Shown here in pieces: positions 35,047 through 56,806 of a DNA stretch of 56,806 nt (positions are counted from its first letter, which is position 1; the number at the start of each line of letters is the position of its first letter). The position numbers were made by a program, and so were the translations under genes. The stretch is taken from assembly GCF_024345415.1 (NCBI RefSeq), contig NZ_JAGQBB010000019.1, positions 1 to 56,806 on the forward strand, in the 5' to 3' direction. Origin of the DNA: Synechococcus sp. Tobar12-5m-g. Its GTDB lineage: Bacteria; Cyanobacteriota; Cyanobacteriia; PCC-6307; Cyanobiaceae. The notes under the pieces were generated by a model that worked only from the letters and a program-made list of their open reading frames with translations, did no database searches and was not told the origin of the DNA.

Positions 35047-35670
35047 TCAGCCCGATTGGTTGCCGCGTGGCGGCCAGTCGGACGGGGTGTTGGCGTTGAT
35101 CAGTTGGAGAGGATCGAGGGCCACGGCGCTGAAGTTCCGGCTCTGGCGCAACCAGCGCAGCAGGCTGCGGCCGCCACGGGCGGTGAAGGCCTCGGCGGAG
35201 TTGCAGTGGGTGGCCGTGGCCGGATAGAGCCCGAGCAGGGGCTGGAGCCGCTGGCCGTCATGGGCAACCTGGATCGTCTCCGGGTTCTCCAGCCCGGCCT
35301 CCACCAGTTGTTGCAGGGTCTCGAAACGAAGCCAGGGCATGTCCACCGGGGCCAGCAGCAGCCGTTGGCCCCGGTGGTGAGCCATCAGGCGGGTGAGGGC
35401 CAGCAGGGGACCTTCCCAGGGGGCCGGCTCCACCAGCACCTCGATGCAGAGGCCTTGGCGCTCAGCAAGCTGGCGGGCCAGCAGGCCGTGGTGGGGGTGC
35501 CGACTCAGCAGGGTGACCGGCTGCCCCAGCCTGCCCAGCAACCCCAGGCCGTGCTCCAGCCAGGTGCCGCCGCCTGGGTGAGCCAACAGGGCCTTGTCAG
35601 TACCCATGCGAAGGCTCTGGCCACCGCTCAGCAGGCAGGGGCGGAGCTGGGCGGTGGACGGCGGGGGCAT
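35047..35670 (-). CDS. mobA: Molybdenum cofactor guanylyltransferase MobA
   Basis: 207 residues with the nucleotidyl-transfer motif LSGGQSLRMGTDKALL near residue 14 and LLLAPVDMPWL (metal-binding Asp) near 105. MobA links GMP to molybdopterin, giving the MGD cofactor used by DMSO-reductase-family enzymes such as the FdhF/YdeP-like protein in this cluster and by nitrate reductase. Followed by moaA in the same direction, so probably an operon. Confidence 0.9.
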   Translation of the reverse strand: MPPPSTAQLRPCLLSGGQSLRMGTDKALLAHPGGGTWLEHGLGLLGRLGQPVTLLSRHPHHGLLARQLAERQGLCIEVLVEPAPWEGPLLALTRLMAHHRGQRLLLAPVDMPWLRFETLQQLVEAGLENPETIQVAHDGQRLQPLLGLYPATATHCNSAEAFTARGGRSLLRWLRQSRNFSAVALDPLQLINANTPSDWPPRGNQSG

Positions 35671-35870
35671 GGGGTCAGGCTGTCAGAAAGGCGGGGATCC
35701 GCTTCGGTGCCACTCCACCCCTGGGGACCTGGCTGTCGCAACGAAGGGTGCCGCCAGGGATGCCCGAACCAAGGTTCCCAACATTCTCAGCGCAAGGCAA
35801 TGGACTCCTCTTCATCGCCTCAATAGGGTGATGAAATCAGGGCGAAAAGCTCTGATAGCTTGATTTTTAG

Positions 35871-36008
35871 ATGTCGCCTTTCTCCATTCCTGATCCCCAT
35901 CGAATCCACGCATTGAGCCTCACCGACAAGGTCAAGATAGTGGCCAGGGATCTAGCCGGCAAGGGCAAGAAAGCTCAATCCTCAAGCCTGCGTGGGCATT
36001 CGCCCTGA
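35871..36008 (+). CDS. Short ORF with CsbD-like segment
   Basis: 45 residues from ATG 35871, or 31 from TTG 35913. The stretch SLTDKVKIVARDLAGKGKKA resembles the N-terminal third of CsbD-type stress proteins, but the rest of that family's repeat is missing. It sits in an unusually AT-rich stretch for this genome, and the ribosome binding site is poor. It may be a fragment or chance. The surrounding 35671-36064 holds no other gene that I can support. Confidence 0.3.
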   Translation: MSPFSIPDPHRIHALSLTDKVKIVARDLAGKGKKAQSSSLRGHSP

Positions 36009-36064
36009 CAGGCGCGGGCCCTGCGTCAAGCAGGGCAACCGTTGCGAAAATCCCGACATTTCTT

Positions 36065-36089
36065 ACTGAACAGTGACCCACTGTTCAGT
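36065..36089. promoter_or_regulatory. Perfect 11-bp inverted repeat, operator-like
   Basis: ACTGAACAGTG, three bases (ACC), then CACTGTTCAGT: 11 of 11 bases pair. There is no T-run, so it is not an intrinsic terminator. Arm length and small spacer fit a dimeric repressor such as a TetR-family protein. It lies about 80 bases before the 38-codon ORF at 36168 and is the only evident control element in the gap after mobA. Confidence 0.6.
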
Positions 36090-36167
36090 TTCCGCAATCC
36101 TCCGATAGCGTGAGTTGCCGTCGCAGGTCCGCTGCTGGCGATCACTCCCAGCCCAGGAGGTCCGCCG

Positions 36168-36284
36168 ATGATTCCCACCCGCTTCATGGTCGCCTCCAAC
36201 CTGCTGGAGTGTGCTGGCAGGCTCGCCTTGCTAAGCGGCGTCCTGGCACTGGTCGCTGAAGCTGCCCTGCTGGCTTGCCTCTGA
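36168..36284 (+). CDS. Small hydrophobic membrane peptide (38 residues), putative
   Basis: ATG 36168 is preceded by a perfect AGGAGG (36155-36160) at 7 bases. The product starts MIPTRFMVASNLLECAGRL and continues with one hydrophobic helix (LALLSGVLALVAEAALLACL), ending in Cys-Leu. It overlaps the 3' end of the multicopper oxidase gene on the other strand by 54 bases. An inverted repeat 80 bases upstream could control it. It is too short for a family assignment; a membrane peptide, a regulatory subunit or a type I toxin-like peptide are all possible. The ideal ribosome binding site is the main reason to call it. Confidence 0.45.
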   Translation: MIPTRFMVASNLLECAGRLALLSGVLALVAEAALLACL

Positions 36285-37553
36285 CCGCCAGCTCCAGCGC
36301 TGAACGTACGGCGCTCTGCGGACAGTTCGATCCATCTGATTTCCGTGGCGACGCCTGACGGTGAACATGGCGTGCATGCCCGCTTCCATGTGATCGTTCA
36401 CATGGCAATGGAACATCCACATGCCGGGCCGATCGGGCGTCATGTCCAGCGTTCTGCTGCTCGCCGGGAAGATCTCCGTGGTATCGAGCCGCCGGCCGTT
36501 CTCCAGGAGCGTGGCGCCATGCCAGTGGGGGGTGTGGATGTCGATCTCCGTGCCCATGCTCATCACATGCCAGCGCACATGCTCCCCCTCCGCCATCGTG
36601 AGACCGGGGAGATCTCCATACACGAAGCCGTTGATGCCATGCATCAGGTTGCTCTCGACGAACTCCTCGTCTTCCGGATTGATCGGGGCGTTGCCGAGAA
36701 ACTCCCTCATGTTCGTCTCGAGGTAAAGGCTCTTGTTTTCATCGGTCACCGTGAACAGGTTCACGAATTGGCGATCCACGCCCTTGGGCAGCTGCCGTCG
36801 TTCGTCCAGGCTGCCGCGTCGGTGGATCACGATGGCCCCCACAAGACCGGCGCTGGTGTCGCCCACCTCGTTCACATGGGAGTGATAGGGCCAGGCGATC
36901 GAGTCCGGATCGGCCGGTCCCGGTCCTGAGCGGGGAGGCACCTGCCATCGGTAGGTGAAGGTGCCACCAGCCGGCACGGCATGGCCAGGGCTGCCGCCAC
37001 CATGGACCTGATGGGCCCGATGGGAGCCAGTGGAATCCCTCGAGCTAACGGCATAGCCGGAACCTTCATTCGCTTTGTCGTAGGCCACCCCATGGGGGTG
37101 GAGGCTCACCGGAAAACGGGTTTCGTTGCGGACATGCACCACGATCGTGTCGCCCACCTCGGCGCGTAGGATCGGTCCGAGCGCGCCGAGATGCTCCTCG
37201 CGCGAGCCCGGCCTGCGAACCCGGCCCCCATCAGGATTCGCCCCGCCGGAGGGCTGGGGACCATCGAGCAGCGTGTCGAAGTTCGGCCCATAGGAGCGGA
37301 ACACGGCCTTGCGGTAGATCCGACCGATGCGGTCGGGCCCCGGCTTGAGGAACACCAGTTCCTTCTCCCCGAACGGTGCGGCCGTCATCCGATTGATCGG
37401 ATAGGAGGGGGAATAACTCCAGAGCATCTCCTCCGCCTTGATCCAGTACTCCCGTGAATGGGAACGCCAGGGTCCAAGCCAGGCAAGCAGCAGAACCGCT
37501 GCCACGATGAGAAGCAGCACCCAGGAGGCTGACCTGCGAAGCACTCCTGGCAT
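36231..37553 (-). CDS. Membrane-anchored multicopper oxidase
   Basis: 440 residues from ATG 37553, which directly precedes an N-terminal membrane segment (SASWVLLLIVAAVLLLAWL). Copper ligands occur in all four expected motifs: LHPHGVAYD, WPYHSHVNE, HTPHWHG and MFHCHVNDHMEAGM, the last with the type 1 Cys. The domain order and spacing resemble the ceruloplasmin-like two/three-domain oxidases. It probably faces the periplasm and oxidises Cu(I), Fe(II) or an organic substrate. A CRP-like palindrome lies about 80 bases upstream. Not part of the EamA/CueO-like operon, which starts further along on the same strand. Confidence 0.87.
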   Translation of the reverse strand: MPGVLRRSASWVLLLIVAAVLLLAWLGPWRSHSREYWIKAEEMLWSYSPSYPINRMTAAPFGEKELVFLKPGPDRIGRIYRKAVFRSYGPNFDTLLDGPQPSGGANPDGGRVRRPGSREEHLGALGPILRAEVGDTIVVHVRNETRFPVSLHPHGVAYDKANEGSGYAVSSRDSTGSHRAHQVHGGGSPGHAVPAGGTFTYRWQVPPRSGPGPADPDSIAWPYHSHVNEVGDTSAGLVGAIVIHRRGSLDERRQLPKGVDRQFVNLFTVTDENKSLYLETNMREFLGNAPINPEDEEFVESNLMHGINGFVYGDLPGLTMAEGEHVRWHVMSMGTEIDIHTPHWHGATLLENGRRLDTTEIFPASSRTLDMTPDRPGMWMFHCHVNDHMEAGMHAMFTVRRRHGNQMDRTVRRAPYVQRWSWRSEASQQGSFSDQCQDAA

Positions 37554-37631
37554 GACGAACGACCAAACCCCAGCGCAGGGAAACGTAGGGCGCTGCGCGG
37601 ATCCGGCCTCCACCATTCACTGCTTGTCGGC

Positions 37632-37645
37632 GTGACATTTGTCAC
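37632..37645 (-). promoter_or_regulatory. CRP/FNR-like palindrome GTGA-N6-TCAC
   Basis: GTGACATTTGTCAC is a perfect 14-base palindrome and contains the CRP core GTGA-N6-TCAC. It lies about 80 bases upstream of the multicopper oxidase start. A CRP-family regulator is encoded at 53007 in this window, but which CRP-type protein binds here cannot be told from sequence. Confidence 0.55.
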
Positions 37646-38010
37646 CAGCAATTGATTAATCCGTCACCATCAAGGGCGCAGGGATGATCTTTGGACCTCG
37701 GCTACCAGGCATGATTCACGCAGGATCCAGAGTTTGCAGTGGCAAAGAATCAACGGATCCTCCAGCGTGATTGCCTACGCAACTCTGCGCACAAGCGCCT
37801 GAAAGAGCAGTGTGCCGTAGGCCGAAGAGCTTGTCGTTTCCCGACTTCATTGCCGGCGAACATACCTGCTTACGCCGGATTGCTTGATTGATGGTCTCCA
37901 GATAAGGCAATTCCGCTCCACCCAATGGGACTGCTCTAGCCGGTTCTTGGAGGTGATCAGCCAAGAGCTGGCCATTGATCCGGATCTGAGGCTTAGGCAG
38001 AGCCGTCGGG
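37646..38010. other. Intergenic region without a supportable gene
   Basis: About 365 bases between the multicopper oxidase promoter and the end of the EamA-type gene. Small open frames are present but show no protein-like composition or ribosome binding site, and I find no convincing hairpin. It probably contains the transcript end of the EamA operon. Confidence 0.4.
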
Positions 38011-39099
38011 TCAGTGCTGATGGCGGTGGTGCACATCGCTGACGTGGGGGTGCTCGTGGGCCAGCGGGTCATGGCGATGGCGATGGCTGTGCCAGAAGGG
38101 TTGGTCAGGCTCGAGGTCCGCGAGTTCCTCCGGTCGGTGGGGATGAATGTGGTGAGCATCGCCGTTTACAGGGGCGTGGAAGTGGCGGTGCTGGTGATCG
38201 AGTTCGGCATGGCGGTGCCAGTGGCCATGGCTGGATCGCAGCAGCAAGCCTGTACTGACCGCCATGGCGGCCGCCGCCAGCACAAGCGATGGACTGAGCG
38301 GTGAACCCAGCAGGGCCACCGCCACCAGGGCACCAAGGAAGGGCGCGGTGGAGAAGACCACGGCTTCCCTGGCGGCGCCAAGGGAGGCCAGGGCCACCAT
38401 GTCGAGCCAGATCGACACGCCATAGCCCAGGCTGCCGATGCCGAGCAGGGCGGCGCTCATCCAGACGAACGGAACCGGGTGCCCCTGCAGCTGGGCCACG
38501 GCCAGCATCGGCAGGGCAGCCCCGAGGGCCTTGGCGGCGGAGATCTGCAGGGGGTTGCGCAGGCTGAGGCGCTGGGCGAGGTTGTTGTCGATGCCCCAGC
38601 ACAGGCAGGCCAGGGCGATCCACAGCACGCCCTGCCACTGGCTGCCGCCCAGGGGACCAGCCGAGAGCACCAGGGCTCCGCAGAGCGTCAGGGCGGCCGC
38701 CGCCCAGCCGTCACGGCCGAGATGCTCCTTCCCCACCCCCACGGCGATCAGCACCGTGAACACCGCCTCCAGGTTGAGCAGCAACGCCGAGGCCCCCGGG
38801 GTGAGCAGCGCCAGGCCCTTGACCAGGGCGATCGGACCGGCGATGCCGCCCAGCAGGGTGATCAGCCCCAACAGGGGGAGATCCTGCCGCTGGATCGGAG
38901 CGTGGCGGCTGGTCGGGGCCTCGGCCACGGCCAGGGGCAACAGCACCAACGCCGCACCGGCGTACAGCAGACCCGCCACGAGTACGGGGGAAGGCCCGTG
39001 GCTGAAGCTGCCGATCAGCGGAGCGCTGGAGCCGAACAGCGCGGCTGAGGCGAGTCCGGCCATCCAACCGCGGTGCGATTGATCAACCTGCCTGAGCAT
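38011..39099 (-). CDS. EamA/DMT-family transporter with a His-rich C-terminal tail
   Basis: 362 residues. Ten hydrophobic helices with the two EamA repeats (LASAALFGSSAPLIGSF; GVLWIALACLCWGIDNN) end near residue 290. The last 70 residues are a soluble tail crowded with His: HGHWHRHAELDHQHRHFH, then HHIHPHRPEE and HSHRHRHDPLAHEHPH. Such tails bind Ni, Zn, Co or Cu and are unusual on EamA proteins. The gene overlaps the multicopper oxidase stop by 17 bases, so both are read from the MerR-type promoter at 40560-40591. Metal or metal-chelate export is inferred. Confidence 0.85.
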   Translation of the reverse strand: MLRQVDQSHRGWMAGLASAALFGSSAPLIGSFSHGPSPVLVAGLLYAGAALVLLPLAVAEAPTSRHAPIQRQDLPLLGLITLLGGIAGPIALVKGLALLTPGASALLLNLEAVFTVLIAVGVGKEHLGRDGWAAAALTLCGALVLSAGPLGGSQWQGVLWIALACLCWGIDNNLAQRLSLRNPLQISAAKALGAALPMLAVAQLQGHPVPFVWMSAALLGIGSLGYGVSIWLDMVALASLGAAREAVVFSTAPFLGALVAVALLGSPLSPSLVLAAAAMAVSTGLLLRSSHGHWHRHAELDHQHRHFHAPVNGDAHHIHPHRPEELADLEPDQPFWHSHRHRHDPLAHEHPHVSDVHHRHQH

Positions 39100-45413: not shown

Positions 45414-46103
45414 ATGACCAACAACGATCCACGCCGAAGAATCTTCGGACGGCCAGCCCTTCTGCTGCTGGCCACGGGAGGCATCATCACGGTCTCCCTT
45501 TGGACAGGCACCCGGTGCCTGTCCCAGGGTTGGGGCGGTGCCGGCATGCCCGGGTACGGAAGCGGCGTGGGTGGCCCGGGTCAGATGGGGATGGGCCATT
45601 CGGATCAGCAGTTCATCGTGATGATGATCCCCCACCACGACGGGGCGATCGCCATGGCCGATCTCGCCCTCACCCGCGCCAAGCGGCCCGAGATCAAGGA
45701 GCTGGCGAAGAACATCAAGGTCAGTCAGACCCGCGAGAACGCCCAGATGCGCGCCTGGTACCGGCAGTGGTTTGGCAAAGATGTGCCCAGTTGGGGGCCG
45801 GGCACAGGCTGGGGTTGGCAGAACGGCATGGGCATGGGTGGAGGAATGGGCATGGGCGGGGGTATGGGACAGATGGGTGGTGGCACGAACCTCTCTGCCC
45901 TGAGCGCAGCCCCTGACTTCGACCGTGCCTTCATCGAGCAGATGATTCCCCACCACCAGATGGGCGTGATGATGGCCTCGATGGCCCAGACCAATTCCCA
46001 GCAACCGGAGCTTCGTGAGTTGCAGCAGGCCATGGTGCGGGTGCAGAGCGATGAAATCCAGCAGATGGCCCAGTGGTATCGCAGTTGGTACGGCACACGC
46101 TGA
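45414..46103 (+). CDS. DUF305 protein with two repeats
   Basis: 229 residues from ATG 45414, with an N-terminal membrane segment (PALLLLATGGIITVSLW). Two DUF305 units are visible: FIVMMIPHHDGAIAMADLAL and FIEQMIPHHQMGVMMASMAQ. They are joined by a Gly/Met-rich linker (GMGMGGGMGMGGGMGQMGGG), a likely Cu(I)-binding segment. Exported or anchored in the periplasm. No TTGACTCTCC element was found upstream, so it may be controlled differently from the gene at 40696. The DUF302 gene follows 8 bases after its stop. Confidence 0.87.
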   Translation: MTNNDPRRRIFGRPALLLLATGGIITVSLWTGTRCLSQGWGGAGMPGYGSGVGGPGQMGMGHSDQQFIVMMIPHHDGAIAMADLALTRAKRPEIKELAKNIKVSQTRENAQMRAWYRQWFGKDVPSWGPGTGWGWQNGMGMGGGMGMGGGMGQMGGGTNLSALSAAPDFDRAFIEQMIPHHQMGVMMASMAQTNSQQPELRELQQAMVRVQSDEIQQMAQWYRSWYGTR

Positions 46104-46695: not shown

Positions 46696-46725
46696 AGTAG
46701 GGCGCCCGACAAGGGGCGCCCTACT
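46696..46725 (+). terminator. Strong hairpin after the DUF305-DUF302 operon
   Basis: AGTAGGGCGCC and GGCGCCCTACT pair over 11 bases with an 8-base loop. A run of Ts is missing, so it may work as a Rho-type or weak terminator. The gap 46505-46850 contains no gene that I can support. Confidence 0.45.
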
Positions 46726-47341: not shown

Positions 47342-48595
47342 TCAGGCCGGCTTGAGCTGCTGCCGCAGGGGCGGCGGCAGGCGAATCCCCGAGAGGAAGG
47401 CCAGGGCCACCAGCAGGCAGGAGGCCCACAGGCAGGCCTGCAGGCCTCCCACCAGGAACAGGGCGCCGGAGAGCAACGTGCCCACCAGCCGGCCGGCCGC
47501 ATTGGCCATGTAATAGAAGCCCACGTTGAGGCTCACCGATTCGGCATCGGTGTAGGCCAGCACCATGTAGCTGTGAATCGAGGAATTCATCGCGAACACG
47601 GCCCCAAAGGCCGCCAGGCCCACCACCACGGCAACGCCGGGGTTGCCCACATCGCGCCACAGGCTGATCGCAATTAAGGCGGGGATGGCCGTCAGCACGG
47701 CGCTCCAGAACTGCACGGCGGACACCCCCGGAGGTGCACTTTTCCCCCAGCTGCGCCGCAGGGCCGGGGCCGAGGCCTGAATGATCCCGTAGCCGATCAC
47801 CCAGAGGCCCATGAAGCCTCCCACCTCCCAGTACTTCCAGCCCAGGACCGCCTGCAGGAACACCGGCAGGGCCACCACGAACCAGACATCACGGGCGCCG
47901 AACAGGAAGAAGCGGGCTGTCGAGAGCACATTGATGCCCTTCGATTTCGAGAACAGGGCCATGATGGCGGGCTTCTCCTTCATGCGCCCGATCTCGCCGG
48001 GCAGCACCAGGGTCATCAGGAAGGAGAGAAACAGGCCGGCGGCCATGGCCCCAACGGCGGCGCTGAAGCCGATCGTGGTGAGCAGCAATCCCCCCAGAAA
48101 GAACCCCACCCCCTTGAGGGCGTTCTTGGAGCCGGTGAGGATCGCCACCCATTTGAACAACTGGGTCTCGCCCCGGCTGTAGTCCTCGGGGGTTTCCGGC
48201 ACCACGGTCTTGATGGCGCTCTTGGCACTCATCTTGTTCAGGTCCTTGGCGATGCCGCTGATCGCCTGGGCCACCATCACGTAGGCCACACTCCACAAGC
48301 GCGGCCAGCTGTCGGCCACCGGAATCAGCATCAGCAGGGCAGCCACCTGCATCAGCGTTCCGGCCCAGAGGGTGAGCCGCAGCCCGAAGCGGGCCCCCAG
48401 CCAGCCGCCGTAGAGGTTGGTGACGATCCCGAAGAATTCGTAGAAGAGGAACAGAAAGGCGATCTCCAGGGTGGAGTAGCCGAGCTGGTGGAAGTGGAAC
48501 ACCACGAGCATGCGCAGGGCCCCATCGGTGAGGGTGAAGGCCCAGTAGTTGGCCGTGACGACCGCGTACTGCTGCAATCCCGTGAGGTGCTTCAT
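47342..48595 (-). CDS. arsJ: Organoarsenical efflux MFS transporter ArsJ
   Basis: 417 residues from ATG 48595, about 11-12 helices. [53 protein letters not shown] and [20 protein letters not shown] are typical ArsJ sequence. ArsJ exports 1-arseno-3-phosphoglycerate made by the GAPDH encoded immediately upstream, removing arsenate. The four-base ATGA overlap with that gene couples them. Divergent from arsR across the ars operator. Confidence 0.95.
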
Positions 48596-49638
48596 CGGGC
48601 GGGACCCTCCAGGACGGCACTTTCGAACGCAGCCACGTGACAGGCCAGATCGGCCATGCGGCAGCTGTAGCCCCACTCGTTGTCGTACCAGGCGTAGACC
48701 TTGAGCTGGGTGCCGTTGATCACCATCGTGGAGAGGGCATCAACGATGGCGCTGCGCGAATCGTTGACGTAGTCGATCGACACCAGGGGCCTGGTTTCGT
48801 AGCCAAGGATTCCCTTCAGGGGCCCGTTGGCGGCGGCCTCGAAGGCGGCGTTGACCTCGTCCGCAGTCACGGCACGCTCCAACTCGAACACCGCGTCGGT
48901 GAGGGCAGCATTGAGCAGCGGCACCCGCACGGCATGGCCGTTGAGCTTTCCCTGCAACTCGGGGAAGATCAGGCCAATCGCCCGGGCCGAGCCGGTGGTG
49001 GTGGGGATCAACGACTGCAGGCAGGAACGGGCCCGGCGCAGGTCGCTCTTGAACGCATCCACCACCACCTGGGTATTGGTGACATCGTGCAGGGTGGTGA
49101 TCGAGCCGTGGCGGATCCCGAAGCTTTCCTGCACCACCTGCACCACCGGTGCCAGGCAGTTGGTGGTGCAGGAGGCGGCGGTGAGCAGTCGGTGGCGGCT
49201 GGGGTCGTACAGGTGGTGGTTGACGCCGTAGACGATGTTGAGTGCTTCTTCTCCGGCGATCACACCCTTCACCGGGCAGGCCACGATCACGCGCTTGAGG
49301 CCCGCCGCGGTGAAGTAGGGCTCGAGGGTTTCGGGGGTTTTGATCTTGCCGCTGCATTCGAGCACCAGATCCACACCGGCGTCAAGCCAGGGCACGGCGG
49401 TGGGATCCTTCTGCTGGCTGTAGCCCACGGGCTGGCCCTCCACCAGGAAGCCCGTCCCGTTCGCTTCCACGGCCTGGGGCCAGCGGCCATGCACCGAGTC
49501 GAATTCCAGTAGGTGGGCGGCGGCGGCGGCATCGCCTCCCGGATCGTTGACGTGCACCAGGGAAATGCCGGGCCGGCCCCAGAGGGCGCGGAACACCAGG
49601 CGGCCGATGCGGCCGAAGCCGTTGATGCCGATCTTCAT
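48592..49638 (-). CDS. gap: ArsJ-associated glyceraldehyde-3-phosphate dehydrogenase
   Basis: 348 residues from ATG 49638: [15 protein letters not shown] (NAD motif), [14 protein letters not shown] with the catalytic Cys, and [11 protein letters not shown] and [11 protein letters not shown] near the end. A housekeeping-type GAPDH fold, but its position in an ars operon marks the arsenate-detoxifying form: it uses arsenate in place of phosphate to give 1-arseno-3-phosphoglycerate. The gene lies downstream of the ArsR operator, with its ATG about 30 bases from it. Confidence 0.95.
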
Positions 49639-49667
49639 TCGGAAAGCCCGCGGTGCTACGAACATAG

Positions 49668-49683
49668 ATCAACTAGAGTTGAT
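49668..49683. promoter_or_regulatory. ArsR operator palindrome
   Basis: ATCAACT-AG-AGTTGAT is a perfect 16-base palindrome matching the ATCAA-N6-TTGAT box of ArsR/SmtB repressors. It lies between the divergent gap-arsJ and arsR-acr3 genes and can control both directions. Confidence 0.85.
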
Positions 49684-49704
49684 TCAAGACGTGTTGCCGA
49701 TCAC

Positions 49705-50037
49705 ATGGCCGATCCAGGGGCTGTTGCCAGTCCGCCGATCCAATCCGAGCAGGCCCGGGCCCTGCTCAAGGCCCTCGCCGAGCCGCTGCGCCTGAGGGTG
49801 ATCGAGGCCCTGGGCGGCGGCGAGCGCTGTGTCTGTGATCTCACCGCCGATCTCGGGCTGGCCCAGTCGAAGCTCTCGTTCCACCTCAAGGTGCTCAAGG
49901 AAGCCGGGCTGCTGGCCGATCGGCAGGAGGGCCGCTGGATCTACTACAGCCTGCGCCCGGAAGCGATCGAACAGCTGCGCAGTTGGCTGGCGGAGCTGGG
50001 CGCCCAGTGCAGCAAGCCCGCCGCTCCTTGCACATGA
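49705..50037 (+). CDS. arsR: ArsR-family repressor
   Basis: 110 residues from ATG 49705. The winged-helix reads LLKALAEPLRLRVIEAL, SKLSFHLKVLKEAGLL and RWIYYSLRPEAI. The As(III)-binding Cys-Val-Cys motif is present as ERCVCDL; two more Cys sit at the C-terminus (QCSKPAAPC). It should repress both ars transcripts until As(III) binds. The stop overlaps the acr3 start (ATGA). Confidence 0.95.
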   Translation: MADPGAVASPPIQSEQARALLKALAEPLRLRVIEALGGGERCVCDLTADLGLAQSKLSFHLKVLKEAGLLADRQEGRWIYYSLRPEAIEQLRSWLAELGAQCSKPAAPCT

Positions 50038-51191
50038 GCGACCTGACCCCGGCCCCGACCGGCCATTGCCGGACTGCCGAAGAACGTGCCGTGCTGGCCA
50101 GGCTGTCGTTGCTGGATCGGTTCCTGCCGCTGTGGATCCTGCTGGCGATGGCGGGCGGGCTGCTGCTGGGCCGCTTCTTCCCCGCCATCCAGGGGGTTCT
50201 CGATGCGGTGCGGATCGGCAACACCTCCCTGCCGATCGCCCTGGGACTGCTGCTGATGATGTACCCGGTGCTGGCGAAGGTGCACTACGAGGAGCTGGGC
50301 CGGGCTGCGCGCGATCGTCGCCTGCTGCGGCTCTCGCTGCTCCTGGTCTGGGGCCTGGGACCGGCGCTGATGTTCGCCCTGGCCTGGATCTTTCTTCCGG
50401 GGCAGCCGGAGTTCCGCACCGGGTTGATCCTGATCGGCCTGGCCCCCTGCATCGCCATGGTGCTGATCTGGATCGATCTGGCCCAGGGCGACCGGGAGGC
50501 GGCCGCCCTGCTGGTGGCGATCAACTCGATCATCCAGGTGCTGGCCTATGCCCTGCTGGGTGGCTTCTACCTCAAGATCCTGCCCGGCTGGCTTGGCCTG
50601 GCCACCCAGGACGTGGCCTTTTCGATGGCGGAGATCGCCAAGGCGGTGCTGGTGTTTCTGGGGCTGCCCTTGCTGGGGGGCTACCTCAGCCGCCGGATCG
50701 GCCTGAGCCTCAAGGGACCCCGCTGGTACGAGCAGCGCTTCATCCCGTTCATCAGCCCTTTTGCGCTCTACGGCCTGCTGTTCACGATCGTGGTGATGTT
50801 CGCTCTGCAGGGGCAGGCGATCACCTCCGATCCGCTCACGGTGGCCAGGGTGGCGGTGCCGTTGCTGCTCTATTTCACAATCATGTGGACCGTGGCCTTC
50901 GCGGTCGGTCGCCGCAACGGCCTGAGCTATGCGAAAACAGCGACGCTTGCCTTCACCGCCGCCGGCAACAACTTCGAGTTGGCCATTGCCGTGAGCATCA
51001 GCGTCTGGGGGGTCAGCTCCCGCCAGGCCCTGGCCGGGGTGATCGGCCCGCTGATTGAGGTGCCGGTGCTGGTGGCGCTGGTGTATGTGTCGCTGTGGTT
51101 GCGGAGCCTCACACCCCTTTTGGCAGCACCAGCTCCACCACGGCGCCGCCGCCCGGGTGGTTGCGGGCCTGAACCCGGCCCCCGTGGGTGA
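50034..51191 (+). CDS. acr3: Arsenite efflux transporter, ACR3 family
   Basis: 385 residues from ATG 50034, ten helices. LGLLLMMYPVLAKVHYEEL, LIGLAPCIAMVLIWIDLAQG with the conserved Cys, and TAAGNNFELAIAVSI are ACR3 signatures. Exports arsenite using the proton motive force. The last ~20 residues (APAPPRRRRPGGCGPEPGPR) are Pro/Arg/Gly-rich, not family-like, and overlap the 3' end of the convergent histidine kinase gene by 83 bases; the normal stop was probably lost and the frame read on into antisense sequence. Confidence 0.93.
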   Translation: MSDLTPAPTGHCRTAEERAVLARLSLLDRFLPLWILLAMAGGLLLGRFFPAIQGVLDAVRIGNTSLPIALGLLLMMYPVLAKVHYEELGRAARDRRLLRLSLLLVWGLGPALMFALAWIFLPGQPEFRTGLILIGLAPCIAMVLIWIDLAQGDREAAALLVAINSIIQVLAYALLGGFYLKILPGWLGLATQDVAFSMAEIAKAVLVFLGLPLLGGYLSRRIGLSLKGPRWYEQRFIPFISPFALYGLLFTIVVMFALQGQAITSDPLTVARVAVPLLLYFTIMWTVAFAVGRRNGLSYAKTATLAFTAAGNNFELAIAVSISVWGVSSRQALAGVIGPLIEVPVLVALVYVSLWLRSLTPLLAAPAPPRRRRPGGCGPEPGPRG

Positions 51192-53006: not shown

Positions 53007-53642
53007 TCAACGTCGTTTCGGCAGGTGGCTGATCACCAGGTGGCGCTGGCCATCGATCTGTAGCCAGCCCTCATCCCGCAGCAGGCCGATCACCCGGGTC
53101 ACGGTGACCCGGGTGGTGCACAGGGCGCTGGCCAGTTCCTGGTGGGTGAGGCGAAGGTTGAGGCGCAGGCCCTGGTCGCAGGGCTGGCCGTACTCCTGGG
53201 CCAGCAATTCCAGAAAGCCCCGCACCCGCTCCTCGACGCGTCGCAGGCCCAGCAGCGAGAGCATGGTTTCCGCCTGGCGGTAGCGGCTGACCACCGCCTG
53301 CATCATTGCCATGGCCAGATGGGGCGACTGCTCGATCTCGGCGCAGGTCAGGCAGAGCAGGTCGCTGTCGGTCAGGGTGAAGGCCTCATAGGCCAGCACG
53401 TTGGTGAGCGGTTCCCCGAACGGCTCGTTCGGCCCGGCCAGCCCCAGCAGGAGGGGATCTCCATGGATGGTGACAGCCTCCAGCTTCACCATGCCCCGCA
53501 CGACGAGCCAGATGCAGTTCTTGAGCAGGGGAACGGCGCTGCCCGCCGTGATGTGGAGCAGGTTGCGGTTGCGGTAACTGGTTTCCAGGACCTCGCGAAT
53601 CGCGTCGCTGCGGCCGGCATGGCGAAAGGGGCTCGAAACCAT
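53007..53642 (-). CDS. CRP/FNR-family regulator, PtrA-like
   Basis: 211 residues from ATG 53642 (GTG 53648 is in frame). An N-terminal cyclic-nucleotide-binding-like fold (IWLVVRGMVKLEAVTIHGD) is followed by a long helix and a helix-turn-helix (LTHQELASALCTTRVTVTRV). In marine Synechococcus a CRP-type regulator called PtrA sits next to phoBR and pstS and drives part of the phosphate response; this gene has the same place, so the identification is by context. Its effector is unknown. It might bind CRP-like sites such as the one at 37632. Confidence 0.8.
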   Translation of the reverse strand: MVSSPFRHAGRSDAIREVLETSYRNRNLLHITAGSAVPLLKNCIWLVVRGMVKLEAVTIHGDPLLLGLAGPNEPFGEPLTNVLAYEAFTLTDSDLLCLTCAEIEQSPHLAMAMMQAVVSRYRQAETMLSLLGLRRVEERVRGFLELLAQEYGQPCDQGLRLNLRLTHQELASALCTTRVTVTRVIGLLRDEGWLQIDGQRHLVISHLPKRR

Positions 53643-56681: not shown

Positions 56682-56806
56682 CTAGGGAGACTCTGGAAAA
56701 CCCCACCACCCTGCGCGAGAATGGCCGTGTGATCGCAGGCGTGAACAGGGTTCATGGGCATCAAGCAGCTCGGCTTTGGTGATTACGAGCAGTCCACGGC
56801 CAAAAA
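56682..56806 (+). mobile_element. Left end of an IS5-family insertion sequence (truncated by window)
   Basis: CTAG (56682-56685) fits the YTAR target preferred by IS5 elements. The IS seems to begin at 56686 with GGAGACTCTGGAAAACC, the probable left inverted repeat, and runs off the window. The right end and the duplicated target cannot be seen, so the boundary is inferred. Confidence 0.5.
56754..56806 (+). CDS. IS5-family transposase, 5' part only
   Basis: The first 17 codons (MGIKQLGFGDYEQSTAK) are a well-known start of IS5-group transposases; the DDE catalytic domain lies outside the window. The gene is read rightward, about 70 bases from the inferred left end of the element. Confidence 0.75.
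   Translation, partial: MGIKQLGFGDYEQSTAK

Follow-up and report, generated by a model that had tools for sequence, protein, structure and literature searches.

Does the short hydrophobic reading frame that runs into the end of a multicopper oxidase gene in Synechococcus sp. Tobar12-5m-g encode a protein, what might such a protein do, and is it governed by the palindrome ahead of it? The window, by which we mean the whole stretch of DNA analysed (56,806 nucleotides of contig NZ_JAGQBB010000019.1), had been described in a sequence-only reading as holding a perfect 11-bp inverted repeat, an AGGAGG at 7 nt from a start codon and a 38-codon hydrophobic ORF overlapping the 3′ end of the oxidase gene on the other strand; all of these are present as described. 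The gene for the 38-residue, predicted single-helix membrane peptide occupies 36168..36284 of the plus strand, stop codon included, and is assigned from the ORF, a profile match obtained without the window sequence, the family alignment, the conservation of start and stop, and a helix model. Its AGGAGG ribosome-binding site, assigned from the sequence, lies at 36155..36160 on the same strand, followed by 7 nt and the ATG at 36168, and the last 54 nt of the ORF (36231–36284) are antisense to the 3′ end of the oxidase ORF. The AGGAGG-ATG-ORF combination by itself, leaving homology aside, is near chance and is weak evidence: AGGAGG-N(4-10)-ATG followed by an ORF of at least 25 aa occurs 5 times in the window, where 20 Markov sequences give 3.0 on average, a difference that is not significant. 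The peptide ORF is significant because the protein is conserved, not because of this arrangement.

Among 201 genomes, a search with the peptide alone as query found start-aligned relatives (48–58% identity, E < 1e-3) in 6 besides its own. A profile (A1) made from 15 sequences was then searched in 400 genomes of the same taxonomic family and matched in 51 of them at E <= 1e-4, the window genome (G000) included, as counted from the listing; at E <= 0.1 the figure was 78 of 400, the extra rows being nearly all short partial matches. Four weaker matches (G352, G070, G383 and G342) were accepted since they begin at position 1 and sit behind c0, the partner gene described below, giving at least 55 accepted carriers among the 400 genomes, in 10 genera. 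The A1 counts are lower bounds, since in many genomes the first-look candidates were scored only in part. The most doubtful member is L168 (from G342; E 0.016), which has neither E31 nor L12 and was retained because it stands behind c0, and peptide-query matches in long frames or missed by the profile (among them loci L072, L091 and L096) were left out. Among 194 genomes drawn from the class, none outside the family gave a match better than E 0.0097, and of 54 pattern matches in viral contigs none was a relative. We use the name MIP, coined here, for sequences with an [MVL]-I-P start and an overall profile match, in which L12, A27 and E31 are nearly constant; judged from these alignments, MIP is apparently an unnamed picocyanobacterial family of membrane peptides of ~40 residues, limited, as far as searched, to the taxonomic family of the window organism.

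The ends of the frame and its internal residues are both kept. In the 54 other members the start codon is ATG (44), GTG (8) or TTG (2), Ile2-Pro3 follows it in all 54, and the constant residues, counted by position, are L12 in 51, A27 in 53 and E31 in 52; one of the exceptions, L094, departs only through a one-residue shift. The stop falls at 38–48 codons in 53 of the 54, the remaining frame reaching 95. The window peptide, at 38 codons, lies within the family length of ~38–48 and has the family start together with L12, A27 and E31. A profile of 53 members from which the window sequence was absent, and from which the 95-aa frame (L147) had been excluded, matched the window frame with an E value of 8.7e-14 and 47.5 bits, the next best of 1199 window segments being 0.1; this test is not wholly independent, since the queries used to collect the members consisted of the window sequence or had it among them. 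Changes among close relatives fall at codon positions 1, 2 and 3 in the numbers 62, 34 and 137 (137 of 233 at the third), as counted in seven groups covering 43 of the 54 loci, the other 11 being left out, and the median dN/dS is 0.27–0.34 in four groups. The third-position excess and the low dN/dS mean that the peptide frame is under purifying selection. ORF 36168–36284 is thus very probably a genuine protein-coding gene missed by annotation, as the sequence-only reading had proposed for a small membrane protein, of which the membrane part is a prediction. For sister strains, in which the same reading would have taken a lack of conservation as refuting, the result was negative: the three congeners examined carry neither the palindrome nor the peptide (every peptide candidate was scored, the best being a partial match at E 0.08). 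The peptide frame is conserved in other genera instead.

The best 19-residue Kyte-Doolittle mean of the peptide is 2.29, over residues 19–37, and AlphaFold2 (18 sequences) models it as one helix spanning residues 4–37 with a mean pLDDT of 90.9, so that by hydropathy and by structure prediction the window peptide has the single hydrophobic helix of the MIP family. High-light-inducible and other single-helix chlorophyll-binding proteins are marked by a helix that carries ExxNxR or ExxHxR; neither form was seen, on reading by eye, in the 38 residues, and assignment of the peptide to that group was rejected for this reason. Of the MIP members, 2 were scanned with Pfam, 4 with NCBIfam and 2 with PHROGs, and none matched a family model, in keeping with the earlier impression that the peptide is unreported. 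FeoC and the other named Feo accessory proteins were likewise set aside, the peptide having no row in Pfam (2 members) or NCBIfam (4 members). The MIP profile matched none of the solved chains. Full-text literature searches with the peptide and c0 motifs returned nothing, and searches by topic brought up general papers on small proteins and the one on PSHCP, discussed below; public databases may nonetheless list the peptide as a hypothetical protein.

The peptide is usually encoded behind a second small gene. In 48 of the 54 other MIP loci, c0, an SH3-like protein of ~60–70 residues with a near-constant WxRRWP core (for example 61 residues at L211:4022–4207), is encoded on the same strand within 450 nt upstream. 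At 16 of these 48 loci the stop codon of c0 and the peptide start overlap (by 4 nt in 14 and by 1 nt in 2), and in a further 15 loci c0 ends 34 nt before that start. The c0 protein is far commoner than the peptide, occurring in 174 of 201 family genomes, and because of this the co-occurrence of the two in genomes says little. Beyond the family, two genomes matched it with E values close to 1e-16 and three others matched more weakly. Six of the 54 other members have no c0 (genomes G193, G149, G150, G285, G315 and G107; loci L095, L145, L147, L148, L156 and L162), and in one of these carriers, G150, which is 78% complete, no c0 match was found at all. Other sequence lies upstream in these six members, and at least two of the loci without c0 (L095 and L147) have in common another conserved-looking upstream frame.

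As with the peptide, library searches with c0 gave nothing above cut-off: 16 c0 sequences run against Pfam had matches only below it, one run against NCBIfam had none, and one run against PHROGs had none above it. By sequence, the solved chains gave a single, unrelated row (E 0.67). Structure prediction gives c0 a small barrel of five strands, whose closest folds are NusG/KOW, Tudor, NdhS and PsaE; Foldseek with the c0 model gave no row at E <= 0.001. NdhS and PsaE are SH3-like stromal subunits of photosynthetic complexes. The c0 model is similar to NdhS (Ssl0352; 3c4s) with Z 8.2 and rmsd 1.6 over 53 aligned residues, with no sequence match, and photosystem I chains E, which we take to be PsaE, are among its best Foldseek rows. 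The function of c0 is not deducible from its fold, because the small SH3-like barrel is very common. A candidate identity was PSHCP, described as a hyper-conserved 62-aa Prochlorococcus/Synechococcus protein, 100% conserved in nearly all genomes and encoded beside rpl19 (PMC4215834). The two are alike in clade, size and weak SH3-like similarity. They differ in that PSHCP is so strictly conserved and is said to have no Cys or His for zinc binding (PMC4215834), whereas the c0 rows are 34–70% identical to the first and are marked by the near-constant WxRRWP core; c0 as PSHCP was rejected on that description (PMC4215834).

In the window genome the two genes stand apart. Its c0 gene lies on contig C1 and is followed by no peptide gene, and the same holds for c0 in the congeners G003 and G001 where inspected. 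Neither c0 nor a relic of it is present in the 450 nt upstream of the window peptide ORF, and the window copy is a MIP family member that is not part of a paired c0-MIP unit. A gene that looks by eye like an AbrB-like regulator lies upstream of c0 at L212:4572–4943 in congener G003, and at several of the loci L079–L086 in genus g6. This arrangement suggests an older gene order, out of which the peptide has dropped in the genus of the window organism.

The genes that follow the peptide differ between lineages and often have no recognisable metal role; those outside the Pfam and NCBIfam runs were named by eye. FeoA is downstream in 9 of the 54 other loci (Pfam confirmation for one sequence), an ABC permease, named by eye, in 16, and a P-type ATPase, also by eye, is ~1.3 kb away in two. 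The neighbours in the window suit a metal setting: their products include multicopper oxidases, a protein of cupredoxin type, a P-type ATPase for copper, DUF305 and DUF302 proteins, GAPDH, MFS and SBF-type transporters and a two-component system. Within 47342–51191 the MFS transporter, GAPDH and SBF-type transporter (ACR3-like by eye) genes are adjacent and resemble an arsenic resistance set; after them come genes for a histidine kinase, a response regulator, a Crp-like regulator and a phosphate-binding-type protein. The FeoA, ABC permease and copper-gene neighbours suggest a connection of MIP with metals that rests on few clades; as they are clade-specific, with many non-metal neighbours elsewhere, the link may be accidental. 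A specific link with the oxidase was rejected: the oxidase is found in 3 of 201 family genomes (E <= 1e-30), the oxidase-bearing genomes of L013–L015 have the peptide elsewhere, and G108 has the oxidase with no convincing peptide.

A full reading that, in our estimate, has about an even chance of being right takes the ORF to be a real gene of a conserved family, whose product would partner c0, anchor it or act as an accessory helix, and which here is separated from c0 beside copper genes. Ordinarily the peptide would come from a unit of two genes, its own following immediately on that of c0 and often overlapping it, and would insert in the membrane as one helix, with its Ile-Pro start and its nearly constant L12, A27 and E31. 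The helix may then hold c0 to the membrane, as an anchor or as a docking partner, a tentative proposal to which we give somewhat less than an even chance. Alternatively, it could belong to a neighbouring membrane complex as a small accessory subunit. That complex may be a metal transporter in several lineages, although a role as an accessory to a metal transporter appears doubtful. In the window genome the peptide would be produced apart from c0, from a gene with its own ribosome-binding site at a junction beside copper-handling genes.

Several known small proteins offer comparisons. AcrZ, KdpF and MgtS are single-helix bacterial membrane proteins that tune transporters and, like MIP, have one predicted or known hydrophobic helix. 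The transporter-tuning small proteins are not known to be related in sequence to MIP, whose usual gene partner is an SH3-like protein and whose transporter neighbours vary between lineages. MntS-type transporter-tuning proteins share with MIP a small size, the lack of a catalytic domain and an occasional place beside transporter genes (PMC4361602), and the cyanobacterial micro-proteins share its clade and size class (PMC5126843, PMC7760959). A more speculative extension, which we consider improbable as it stands, would make c0 and MIP a two-part picocyanobacterial membrane module, an SH3-like cytoplasmic piece held on a helix with a conserved glutamate, which would attach to transporters that take up or expel metals (ferrous iron, Mn/Zn ABC or copper, according to lineage) and tune them, the helix having been recruited alone beside the copper/arsenic island of the window.

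The palindrome raises a separate set of alternatives. It occupies 36065..36089 (unstranded), with fully (100%) complementary arms at 36065–36075 and 36079–36089 and 3 nt between them, and ends 78 nt before the peptide ATG. If perfect repeats are counted whose arms span 11 nt or more and whose loop does not exceed 8, the window has 4, while 20 Markov sequences average 0.3; the repeat is unusual, yet one of several in the window. The other three, with arms of 11–12 nt, lie at 46696–46725, 53091–53115 and 45502–45524. The leader region folds more strongly than 200 shuffles of it (z -4.35), and the repeat may act as an operator, as a 5′-leader hairpin or as a hairpin of minus-strand transcripts. 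That it is an RNA hairpin ending or stabilising the minus-strand oxidase transcripts, the peptide gene being unconnected with it, seems rather unlikely: on the minus strand the repeat lies 141 nt beyond the oxidase stop and, as RNA from either strand, it would form a hairpin of -14.5 kcal/mol, but the minus strand has no T-run after it and it was not called as a terminator. Rfam found two tRNAs in the window and nothing else.

The setting of the peptide gene bears on whether it is still in use. On its left is a mobA-like gene (35047..35670, minus strand; PF12804) and on its right the multicopper oxidase gene (36231..37616, minus strand; PF07731/PF07732). Between them, two ends of synteny delimit a junction segment of ~0.67 kb (35690..36358, unstranded) that holds the repeat and the peptide gene and separates a molybdenum-cofactor region from the copper/arsenic block. 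The window is syntenic with congener G003 as far as 35689, immediately 5′ of mobA, and a metagenome-derived genome (L013) is 91.7% identical to the window over 36358–39076. No convincing homologous DNA for 35690–36358 was found among the loci compared (best blastn E 0.001 over 26 nt), and in 60 genomes (G000 and 59 relatives) other copies of 35980–36320 were absent beyond short low-scoring matches. The oxidase extends 41 residues past a conserved ...MFTV, whereas the seven homologues examined end 3–12 residues past the same point; this non-homologous C-terminal tail (36231..36358, minus strand, delimited by the homologue ends and the end of L013 similarity) is partly antisense to the peptide gene. 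The overlap (36231–36284) looks like a by-product and is most simply explained if the oxidase gene, having lost its normal end, now reads through. The contig could contain an assembly error at 35690 or 36358. A right boundary of the island, proposed from a match of 56684–56806 to congener G001, was discarded since its orientation does not fit. Of the earlier placement of the peptide in a metal island, it holds that metal genes adjoin it, but the peptide gene lies outside the island block in common with L013, which ends at 36358.

Recombination may have brought the peptide gene into this junction and left it there as a non-expressed remnant stranded without c0, as its position between two synteny breaks, the missing upstream c0 and the lack of a peptide in the congeners would allow. 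We nonetheless think this unlikely, given an intact frame that retains the constant residues of the family, an AGGAGG at good spacing and the score of 47.5 bits against a profile that excludes the window sequence.

Regulation of the peptide by the palindrome, as the sequence-only reading had suggested, fared less well. An operator for a dimeric repressor of the peptide gene would suit perfect 11-bp arms ending upstream of the ATG and containing TGAACA/TGTTCA, a core of ArsR/SmtB operators, but the 9-bp spacing does not suit those operators. No sigma-70-like site was detected in 35500–36900, and the 25 window ORFs scanned gave no ArsR- or TetR-type match, a Crp-like protein and a response regulator being present. 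The repeat is single-copy in its own genome at up to 3 mismatches, and a 3-mismatch version occurs in one of 200 other family genomes; with this one genome copy, and with the search for 35980–36320 giving nothing beyond short low-scoring matches, its interpretation as a repeated element or one of an operator set was rejected. Within 400 nt upstream of the other MIP members, an exact half-site occurs in none of the 54, one at 1 mismatch in a single locus and one at up to 2 mismatches in 17. Perfect repeats of other kinds do precede some members (among them L146, 11-bp arms, 42 nt before the start; L155, 12-bp arms, 281 nt), and were not counted as kept since their sequences differ from that in the window. 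An operator is therefore, on this evidence, distinctly unlikely. Finally, that the ORF is a hydrophobic frame arising by chance on the strand facing a GC-rich gene, which the near-chance number of AGGAGG-ATG-ORF sets would permit, is scarcely credible and in our view already refuted, as judged from the profile E value of 8.7e-14 and from homologues aligned at start and stop with other genes downstream where listed.

The analysis turns a guessed ORF into a conserved protein family that is absent from the libraries searched and has a frequent partner gene and constant residues. It also provides an example of how, at a recombination junction, a small gene can be separated from the gene it is usually paired with, and another of read-through in a neighbouring gene producing an apparent antisense overlap. 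With so frequent a partner gene and such clear constant residues, the function of MIP is testable.
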